Shown: positions 17,524-39,161 of the stretch, in pieces
How the letters are laid out: each line of letters opens with the position of its first letter
How positions within the stretch are numbered: position 1 is the stretch's first letter
Assembly: GCA_039680605.1 (NCBI GenBank)
Contig: JBDKTA010000022.1
Location: 1-64,000, forward strand
Source: Planctomycetaceae bacterium
GTDB lineage: Bacteria; Planctomycetota; Phycisphaerae; SM23-33
DNA length: 64,000 nt
Direction: 5' to 3'
Notes under the pieces: generated by a model
Seen by the model: the letters and a program-made list of their open reading frames with translations, nothing else
The model's database searches: none
Told to the model about the DNA's origin: nothing
Translations under genes and position numbers: made by a program

Positions 17524-17667
17524 ACCGCCTCACAGAGGCGGAAGGTTTGTGACCCTCGACTGCCGCGGCGTCTGAAACCTGCCGCCTCTGCGAGGCGGGT
17601 GCTGATCAACCACCCACTTCCGGAGGCTCACGCCTCCAGCTAAATCCTGGCGTCCCTGCGGGACGCA
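17524..17667 (+). repeat. Four-hairpin repeat element, copy A
   Basis: Four hairpins follow each other: CCGCCTC-aca-GAGGCGG, CCGCCTC-tgc-GAGGCGG, GGAGGC-tcac-GCCTCC and GCGTCCC-tgc-GGGACGC. The spacer sequences between them are shared with an inverted copy at 27188-27331 and a partial copy at 27348-27398. The rest of 17382-17861 has no gene, only short repeats (CGCTGAGGTCGC, AATCCGCAATC). Confidence 0.85.
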
Positions 17668-27187: not shown

Positions 27188-27331
27188 GCGTCCCGCAGGG
27201 ACGCCAGGACTTAGCTGGAGGCGTGAGCCTCCGGAAGTCGGCGGTTGTTTAGCACCGCCTCGCAGAGGCGGCAGGTTCCAGACGCCACCGGCGGTTGAGG
27301 GTCAAAACACCTTCCGCTTCTGCGAGGCGGG
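27188..27331 (-). repeat. Four-hairpin repeat element, copy B (inverted)
   Basis: Reading the minus strand gives the same order of hairpins and spacers as 17524-17667: CCGCCTC-gca-GAGGCGG-like, CCGCCTC-tgc-GAGGCGG, GGAGGC-tcac-GCCTCC, GCGTCCC-tgc-GGGACGC. The first hairpin has an altered arm. Confidence 0.82.
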
Positions 27332-31982: not shown

Positions 31983-32135
31983 GGGAAAGTCGCGGCGGAG
32001 GCACTAAATGAAGAAGTAATTCGGTTTCTTGAATTACTTCTTCATTTGGCGCCGATTTCCCCTGGCATGGCAAGTATTCATCAAAGCCAAACAACGGCTT
32101 TGATAAATACTTGGTGCCTCCGCCGCGACTTTCCC
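31983..32135 (+). repeat. 153-bp element with inverted ends and two hairpins, copy 1 (leader of the fucosidase gene)
   Basis: The ends are a 22-bp perfect inverted repeat (GGGAAAGTCGCGGCGGAGGC...). Inside are a 17-bp perfect hairpin (arms 32006-32022 and 32031-32047, loop GGTTTCTT) and a second hairpin (AAGTATTCATCAAAGCC with GGCTTTGATAAATACTT, one mismatch). The right end stops 18 bp before ATG 32154, just before its AAGGAG. A second copy with the same order lies at 39005-39161 on the other strand. Either a small non-autonomous mobile element or a structured leader RNA. Confidence 0.9.
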
Positions 32136-37220: not shown

Positions 37221-38950
37221 GGGCGCGCCCCCACAATGCCGTAGACGCGGTTCATGTCCTGAAAGAGCGCGTTGGCCTCGTCGGTCATCTGCCGCCCGCC
37301 GCGGCGGTGCCACTCCTGGGCGAACTCGTCGAAGGCCGTGATCTTAAGGTCGCCCTTGATGATCTGCGTGTAGACCGACATCTGCTTTTCGCGCAGTTTC
37401 TTGAGATACTTGGCGGCCGAGGGCACCACGTCGGGCTTGAGGAACACATCGGCGGCCCCCCACTGCCGCTTGCGATAGGCGTCGTTGAAGGCCACTTCCT
37501 CGCGGCTGCGAAACGCCGCCGTCAGTTCGACCGATGCGCCGCAGGGGCTGAAGAACGTGCCCCCCGCCAGGCCCAGGCCCACGGTGGCGGCCGATCGCTT
37601 GTTGGCGTCGGCGTACTCGGGGGTGGTCTTGAGCCCGCTGCCGGGCGTTTTGCCATCGCGGTACTCATAGTGAAGCCCGCGCTGGCCGCACTTGCTGACG
37701 AGCATGACGTTGGTCTCGTCGGGGTTCTTGTCGAAGCACGCCGCGGCCATCTCGTCCCACATCTTGAGCATGCGGATGACGAGTTGAGGTTTCTTCGCCA
37801 CGCCGGCGCCGAAGACCATGGTGTTGCCCCCGCCGCCCCAGATGCGGATTCCGCGATGGCCGTTGGGCCCCTGCGGCGGCGGGCCCATTACCATGGCCGC
37901 TCGCGGGTTGTTCGCCGCCAGGTCCTTGGCCATCGAGCGGTCCAGTTCCGGATCGACCGCCCACCACACGCCGCCGTGGCTGAGATAGCCCACCTTGCCG
38001 TTGAGGAACTTGCGGTCGTTGTCCTCGCCGCGGTCAAGCTGGAAGTCCGGATGGATCAGCCCTTCCTTATACCACGCCGCCAGCAGCTCCAGCGCCTGCC
38101 GCGCCTCGGGCATCACGCCGCCGTAGACGATCTTGCCGTCGCGCTCGATCCAGTCAAACGGCAGCAGTCCCTGCTTGTCGTTAGGGGCGCCGAAGGCTGC
38201 AAAGACATCGTCGAGGTAGCGGTACCACGCGTCCGAGCTGGCCGACATACCGTAGGTGTCCTGCACGCCGTTGCCGTCGGGGTCCTCGTCGCGGAACCGC
38301 TTCAGGGCCTCGTGCATCTCCTCGAGCGTCCGGGGCACCTTCTTGATGCCGACCTTCTCGAGCCAGTCCTTGCGCCACGCGGGCGACTCGGGATACACGC
38401 CGTCGGACCAGATCGTCGGCACGCCGAGGTTGCGCCCGACCGCCTCGCCGCCGCGGCGATAGTACGAGTACATCCATGCCTGCGGGGCGGTCTCGTTGAT
38501 CAACCGCACGTACGACGGAGCGTGCTTGAGGATCAGCTCGTACGGGATGGGAATGATGAAGCCGTTCCTGGCGTCCATCTGGACATTGATCGGGTCGGCC
38601 TCCCACGCCACGTCGGGCACGAAGACGCCCCCTGCCGACATCATCGGCTTCTTCCACTCGTAGTCCGGCCCGCCCAGGAAGATCGGCTTGATCTTGAGAT
38701 GATAACGTTTTTCGAGATACGTCTGCAGCCAGCCGCCCTCCGTGGCATTGACGCTGTACGGCGGGCCCATCCAGGAAACGGTCAAGACCTCGTTGGGATC
38801 GTAGGCGGCCTCGACGGCCTTCCAGTCGATCTGCGGATCGGTGCTGGCCGTGCGCCGCGGGCCGTTGGCCAGGACGGTAAAAACCGTCAGTGTCGCGGCC
38901 AGGAGGGCAAACCCGGTTATCGTTTTCCAACTCATCGCTGCCGCCAGCAT
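37217..38950 (-). CDS. Extracellular solute-binding protein for the LplB/LplC-type sugar importer
   Basis: About 577 residues (or 572 from ATG 38935). An N-terminal hydrophobic export segment (TITGFALLAATLTVFTVLAN) lacks a lipobox Cys, so it is secreted or anchored by that helix. The body is a family 1-like binding protein of the long LplA/LipO kind (TLEEMHEALKRFRDEDPDGN and GVQDTYGMSASSDAWYRYLD, the usual 'DPDGNG..DTYG' block). First gene of the importer operon. ATG 38950 has CAGGG nearby; ATG 38935 is the alternative. The structured element at 39005-39161 lies 54 bp upstream. Confidence 0.85.
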   Translation of the reverse strand: MLAAAMSWKTITGFALLAATLTVFTVLANGPRRTASTDPQIDWKAVEAAYDPNEVLTVSWMGPPYSVNATEGGWLQTYLEKRYHLKIKPIFLGGPDYEWKKPMMSAGGVFVPDVAWEADPINVQMDARNGFIIPIPYELILKHAPSYVRLINETAPQAWMYSYYRRGGEAVGRNLGVPTIWSDGVYPESPAWRKDWLEKVGIKKVPRTLEEMHEALKRFRDEDPDGNGVQDTYGMSASSDAWYRYLDDVFAAFGAPNDKQGLLPFDWIERDGKIVYGGVMPEARQALELLAAWYKEGLIHPDFQLDRGEDNDRKFLNGKVGYLSHGGVWWAVDPELDRSMAKDLAANNPRAAMVMGPPPQGPNGHRGIRIWGGGGNTMVFGAGVAKKPQLVIRMLKMWDEMAAACFDKNPDETNVMLVSKCGQRGLHYEYRDGKTPGSGLKTTPEYADANKRSAATVGLGLAGGTFFSPCGASVELTAAFRSREEVAFNDAYRKRQWGAADVFLKPDVVPSAAKYLKKLREKQMSVYTQIIKGDLKITAFDEFAQEWHRRGGRQMTDEANALFQDMNRVYGIVGARP

Positions 38951-39004: not shown

Positions 39005-39161
39005 GGGGGAAAGTCGCGGCGGAGGCACCAAGTATTCATAATAGTTTTTGTTTGGCTTTGATGAGTACTTGCCTTGACCAACGGGAAGCGGCCATGAATG
39101 AAGAAGTAATTCACACAACGAATTACTTCTTCATTTAGTGCCTCCGCCGCGACTTTCCCCC
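39005..39161 (-). repeat. 157-bp element with inverted ends and two hairpins, copy 2 (leader of the sugar-importer operon)
   Basis: Read on the minus strand it repeats the plan of 31983-32135: the same end sequence, hairpin AATGAAGAAGTAATTC with its perfect partner (loop differs from copy 1), a ~25-bp spacer, a second imperfect hairpin (arms CAAGTACTCATCAAAG / complement with wobble), and the inverted end. It begins 1 nt after the stop of the metallo-beta-lactamase-fold gene and ends 54 bp before the binding-protein ATG. Confidence 0.9.

Follow-up and report, generated by a model that had tools for sequence, protein, structure and literature searches.

The two repeats of about 155 bp in the window, the 64,000-nucleotide stretch analyzed here (contig JBDKTA010000022.1, assembly GCA_039680605.1), are very likely copies of a non-autonomous IS66-type mobile element (MITE). 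The family is a known kind of element; its unusual point is the conservation of a core with three-way-junction architecture. We propose an element that is about 195 bp long, carries no gene, and would be moved in trans by an IS66-family (ISBst12-group-like) DDE transposase. The substrate of this enzyme would be the outermost 5'-GTAA/GTAT...CTCAG ends, where it would make 8-bp target duplications; the nested-palindrome core inside these ends would, in single-stranded DNA or RNA, adopt a three-way-junction fold. The original prediction had offered either a small non-autonomous mobile element or a cis-acting RNA controlling carbohydrate genes, and it is the former that agrees with about 40 intergenic copies, 8-bp target duplications, and IS66-type ends.

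Results

Each window copy consists of an outer stem enclosing two hairpins, an architecture that forms a three-way junction when folded as single-stranded DNA or RNA (Table 1). All parts predicted for copy 1 were confirmed: the 22-bp perfect arms (GGGAAAGTCGCGGCGGAGGCAC), the 17-bp perfect hairpin, and the second hairpin with one mismatch. Copy 2 contains the same parts, likewise ordered, as proposed, and its hairpin 2 is more decayed than had been implied. The distances to the downstream genes also hold, with 18 bp to the ATG of a fucosidase (PF01120) and 54 bp to the in-frame ATG, at 38950, of a solute-binding protein (PF01547). Folding is much more stable than chance would give (z about -14.5). 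For copy 1 the minimum free energy is -99.4 kcal/mol when computed for RNA (z -14.5) and -62 for single-stranded DNA (z -14.7), and none of 200 shuffled sequences reached these values. A promoter scan of the surroundings of copy 1 found nothing. Elsewhere in the window, matches to the Acido-Lenti-1 RNA lie at 17620-17665 (+) and 27189-27234 (-), scoring 39 bits against an Rfam gathering cut-off of 37.

Table 1. Parts of the two element copies in the window
Feature	Position	Strand	Remarks
Copy 1 core (outer stem, hairpin 1, linker, hairpin 2, outer stem)	31983..32135	+	terminal IS66-like ends not recognizable
Copy 1 outer stem, left arm	31983..32004	+	22 bp, perfect with 32114-32135
Copy 1 hairpin 1	32006..32047	+	17-bp perfect stem (32006-32022 / 32031-32047), 8-nt loop
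Copy 1 variable linker between hairpins	32048..32070	+	about 43% mean difference among copies
Copy 1 hairpin 2	32071..32113	+	18-bp stem (32071-32088 / 32096-32113), one mismatch, 7-nt loop
Copy 1 outer stem, right arm	32114..32135	+	
Copy 2	39005..39161	-	core 39007-39159; outer arms reach 39005 and 39161
Copy 2 hairpin 1	39096..39136	-	
Copy 2 hairpin 2	39029..39071	-	decayed stem, 5 positions unpaired

The repeat had been taken to be present twice, which is wrong for the source genome (G000; 5.23 Mb, 72 contigs, 95% complete). The genome search suggested with the original prediction showed that further copies exist: the inner stem arm, at up to 3 mismatches, occurs at 78 places (4 for a reversed control pattern), and 33 near-complete core copies and about 7 partial ones were identified on both strands. 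In the partial copies, deletion has removed a hairpin or one half of the element. Four loci (L097, L098, L099, and L100) are half-elements, in which a single outer arm runs into unrelated sequence. All copies are intergenic, with none inside genes as called by our own codon-usage caller rather than taken from a curated annotation. The element is thus short (core of 153 bp), multicopy, and devoid of a transposase gene, as MITEs are.

The size of about 155 bp fits the window copies but not the whole element: in siblings that are better preserved, roughly 20 bp more lie on each side of the core, out to GTATCCCCTCAGTTACGGG and GTAATGCCTCAGTCATGGG, and this outer extension ends in 5'-GTAA/GTAT...CTCAG; the element ends in the source genome are GTAATGCCTCAGTCA and GTATCCCCTCAGTTA. 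Direct repeats of 8 bp, counted when the 8-mers abutting the GTAA/GTAT ends were at least 7/8 identical, flank 5 of the 17 copies in which the two ends could be placed; reshuffled partners give a mean of 0.28 (maximum of 4 in 2000 shuffles). Four are exact (gtcagggg, cgtttggc, gcgtctgc, and gccacggg) and one matches at 7/8 (tccggcgc/tgcggcgc). By the same threshold, duplications accompany 13 of 23 copies in a related genome, G023 (shuffle mean, 0.65). They adjoin the GTAA ends, not the core. The possibility that the outer ends are pre-existing target palindromes was considered, and no independent copies of them were found: in the source genome they recur only with the element, the exceptions being two truncated half-elements and one site with 3 mismatches.

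Terminal inverted repeats together with a target-site duplication, as expected of a MITE, are therefore seen in the siblings and not in the window. Both features were looked for at copies 1 and 2, and neither recognizable GTAA/GTAT-type ends nor a target duplication was found, so that their assignment to the family rests on the siblings. They are best explained as old or end-less siblings that lie by chance ahead of sugar genes. Most copies in the source genome also have no duplication, which counts against the MITE reading.

Judged from sequence, the element would belong to the ISBst12 group of the IS66 family, which is characterized by 5'-GTAA ends and an 8-bp duplication. IS66 elements of Paracoccus make 8-bp repeats (PMC3281130), and the ends of Pseudomonas IS66 elements start with GTAAGCG or GTAACCG (PMC12888890). 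ISDge4, a member of the ISBst12 group with ends GTAACTGCTCAGCA / GTGACTACTCAGCA and an 8-bp repeat, shares the GTAA....CTCAG form of the ends and the 8-bp direct repeats with the element described here, which differs in having no transposase gene, a length of only about 195 bp, and a palindromic core (PMC12898284).

Genes for IS66 transposases (PF03050) occur in 13 of 35 genomes of the same GTDB family, some of them bounded by GTAACTCTTCAGCCGTCTGCAA ends (22/22 at L183 and 21/22 at L181) that are close to the GTAAGAGTTCAGCCGTATGC of the G023 element. No PF03050 match was found in the source genome (95% complete) or in G023, and no autonomous partner with common ends was found in either. The parent is accordingly presumed to have been lost, to be unassembled, or to be external, and movement would have been by an IS66 transposase absent from the source assembly. 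Terminal inverted repeat ends were also sought at the IS66 locus of another relative, G005, and not found.

A covariance model built from the inner core and scanned over genomes of the class and phylum identified the architecture in two further genomes, G023 and G005, among 397 of the class, both from the same GTDB family; in a phylum-wide draw of 392 genomes only the source genome matched, in scans that evaluate only a few candidates from each genome and may overlook weak matches. The family thus spans three genera of one planctomycete-lineage family. G023 carries more than 20 full copies with the same two hairpins, a different outer-stem sequence (GAAAAGAGCAAGTCAGGCACAC), and element ends GTAACTATTCACCCAATTGC and GTAAGAGTTCAGCC. 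The G005 relatives combine a long outer stem with hairpin 1; neither hairpin 2 nor GTAA ends were seen in them, and the missing ends count against an IS66-type MITE. In a GTDB-based contig collection, the hairpin 1 pattern occurs in one genome only (Planctomycetales bacterium isolate CSMAG_1105, which appears to be G023) and the exact 22-mer has no match; viral contigs gave none either.

Several G023 copies have palindromes inserted in loops or linkers, which lengthen the hairpins and leave the fold unbroken. Palindromes such as ACCTGCCTGCCGGCAGGCAGGT lie in the apical loop of hairpin 1 at L216-L218, L220-L223, L225, and L228, and longer ones lie in the linker of L228-L230 and the loop of L224/L226. 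Contigs L217 and L220 each form an inverted repeat centered on the element; they are apparently the two fold-back halves into which one further insertion was assembled, with atttagcg as the 8-bp duplication on both sides.

Discussion

The distribution of variation within the element is a puzzling feature for an IS66-type MITE. Among the source-genome copies, the mean pairwise difference is 5-8% in the outer stem, 5-7% in hairpin 1, and 7% in hairpin 2; it is 25-28% in the loops, 43% in the linker, and about 61% in the flanking ends, the last value approaching that of random sequence since in many copies the end can no longer be recognized. Conservation is lowest in the ends to which the transposase is presumed to bind, whereas a typical MITE shows the opposite. 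We weighed the alternative, which we consider rather unlikely, that the core is a unit of its own, either mobile alone or kept in place for a host function (for example, as an intergenic RNA or DNA structure such as an RNase III substrate, an insulator, or a protein-binding cruciform), with the IS66-like ends as only one vehicle.

Several observations point in this direction. Arms differ by 3.4-7.2% whereas linker differences span 0 to more than 60%, and copies in which neither end is recognizable have arms that are almost equally intact (4.3% from consensus versus 2.6%). In G023, arms lie 1.0-2.6% and ends 10-11.5% from consensus, though most duplications are near-intact, and the fold there is the same with another outer-stem sequence; in G005 it recurs with one hairpin and without GTAA ends. 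Copies are also over-represented in divergent gaps (19 of 39, versus 26% of nearby intergenic bases), an excess that may reflect target choice or tolerance. The covariation check that had been suggested shows compensatory changes in the stems, with 17 two-sided cells at 5 pairs within the source genome (5.9 when shuffled) and 80 at 10 pairs across the source genome and G023 (34 when shuffled), although the latter represent essentially two lineages and few events. Loop-loop (kissing) pairing of GTTGTGT/ACACAAC is perfect over 7 nt in 7 of 33 copies, but no within-copy coupling beyond reshuffling was detected (p about 0.08), and this pairing was rejected.

Against a separate core, the duplications abut the GTAA ends, and the copies have neither an orientation bias toward neighboring genes nor neighbors of common function. 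Template-switch correction of quasi-palindromes could also yield paired changes, and a single such event could suffice. By our reasoning template switching would not slow overall drift, from which we infer a degree of purifying selection, acting either on the source copies or at the sites of insertion; constraint acting in source copies would look identical to a retained host function. The arms seem to be constrained beyond what the ends need and were probably kept by selection on propagating lineages. It could further be speculated, although we regard this as unlikely, that the core with its three-way junction is a conserved DNA or RNA module that depends on structure and is retained by selection where it lies, at many sites between genes in this planctomycete lineage. 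It would have spread through IS66-type ends, since decayed, so that a former transposon would have become a standing intergenic structure.

The second possibility of the original prediction, a riboswitch-like leader RNA controlling carbohydrate genes, draws on the two window copies, which precede the fucosidase and the solute-binding protein in the same relative orientation, and is now highly improbable. When orientation and gene class were tabulated across the genome, as had been proposed, the 53 genes starting within 260 bp of an element divided into 28 co-oriented and 25 anti-oriented (9 versus 6 in tandem contexts), and the 30 adjacent genes scanned were of mixed function (ribosomal L21, MutL, ClpB, MsrA/B, 6PGD, radical SAM, TPR, MFS, and others). 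Chance therefore accounts for the sugar-related neighbors of the window copies and for their shared orientation. Searches of Rfam at gathering and relaxed thresholds returned no family match at the gathering score and only chance-level matches on the element. Neither the fixed orientation with coherent genes nor the match to a known RNA family that would characterize a riboswitch was thus found.

Equally little credence is given to a REP/BIME-type element whose movement depends on a Y1 (RAYT) transposase: 15 Y1_Tnp (PF01797) matches are present in the source genome and a C.A mismatch recurs in hairpin 2 (18 to 20 of 31-33 copies), but no element motif lies within 1.5 kb of any examined Y1 gene, as would be expected near a RAYT partner, and Y1 transposition leaves no target duplication, unlike the 8-bp duplications seen here. 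The 15 IS200/RAYT-type matches are at L148, L150, L153, L155, L157, L159, L161, and L163-L170. At L166 (contig C39, about 1249-2402), 23-nt hairpins (CACGCACA...TGTGCGTG) are repeated at regular spacing near the Y1 match and might be its REP array.

Several other described elements partly resemble the one reported here. Correia/NEMIS elements of Neisseria are also about 155 bp, intergenic, and bounded by terminal inverted repeats, with a long stable stem-loop in transcripts; they differ in their 5'-TA termini and transposase relation, and no two-hairpin three-way junction is described there (PMC2229807). The CIR repeats of Caulobacter and Brucella likewise join two inverted-repeat arms by a linker, but have no enclosing outer stem and no established target duplication, and carry a GANTC motif (PMC2229807). 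QMITE2 of Coxiella has a similar core size, direct repeats of 7-9 bp, and a strongly folding full transcript; its sequence and host lineage are different, and in the portion of the source considered here its arms are not reported to be more conserved than its ends (PMC10969869). Our literature searches found no IS66-derived MITE, no planctomycete element of such kind, and nothing that combines a three-way junction with a MITE. Together with the Rfam result, the earlier statement that no element with this sequence has been described stands as far as tested.

In conclusion, a lead that resembled a new riboswitch has been settled as an IS66-type MITE family in three genera. Its inverse pattern, in which the folded core is kept while the transposase ends drift, is testable and could reveal whether folding of the hairpins contributes to the spread of the element or serves the host.
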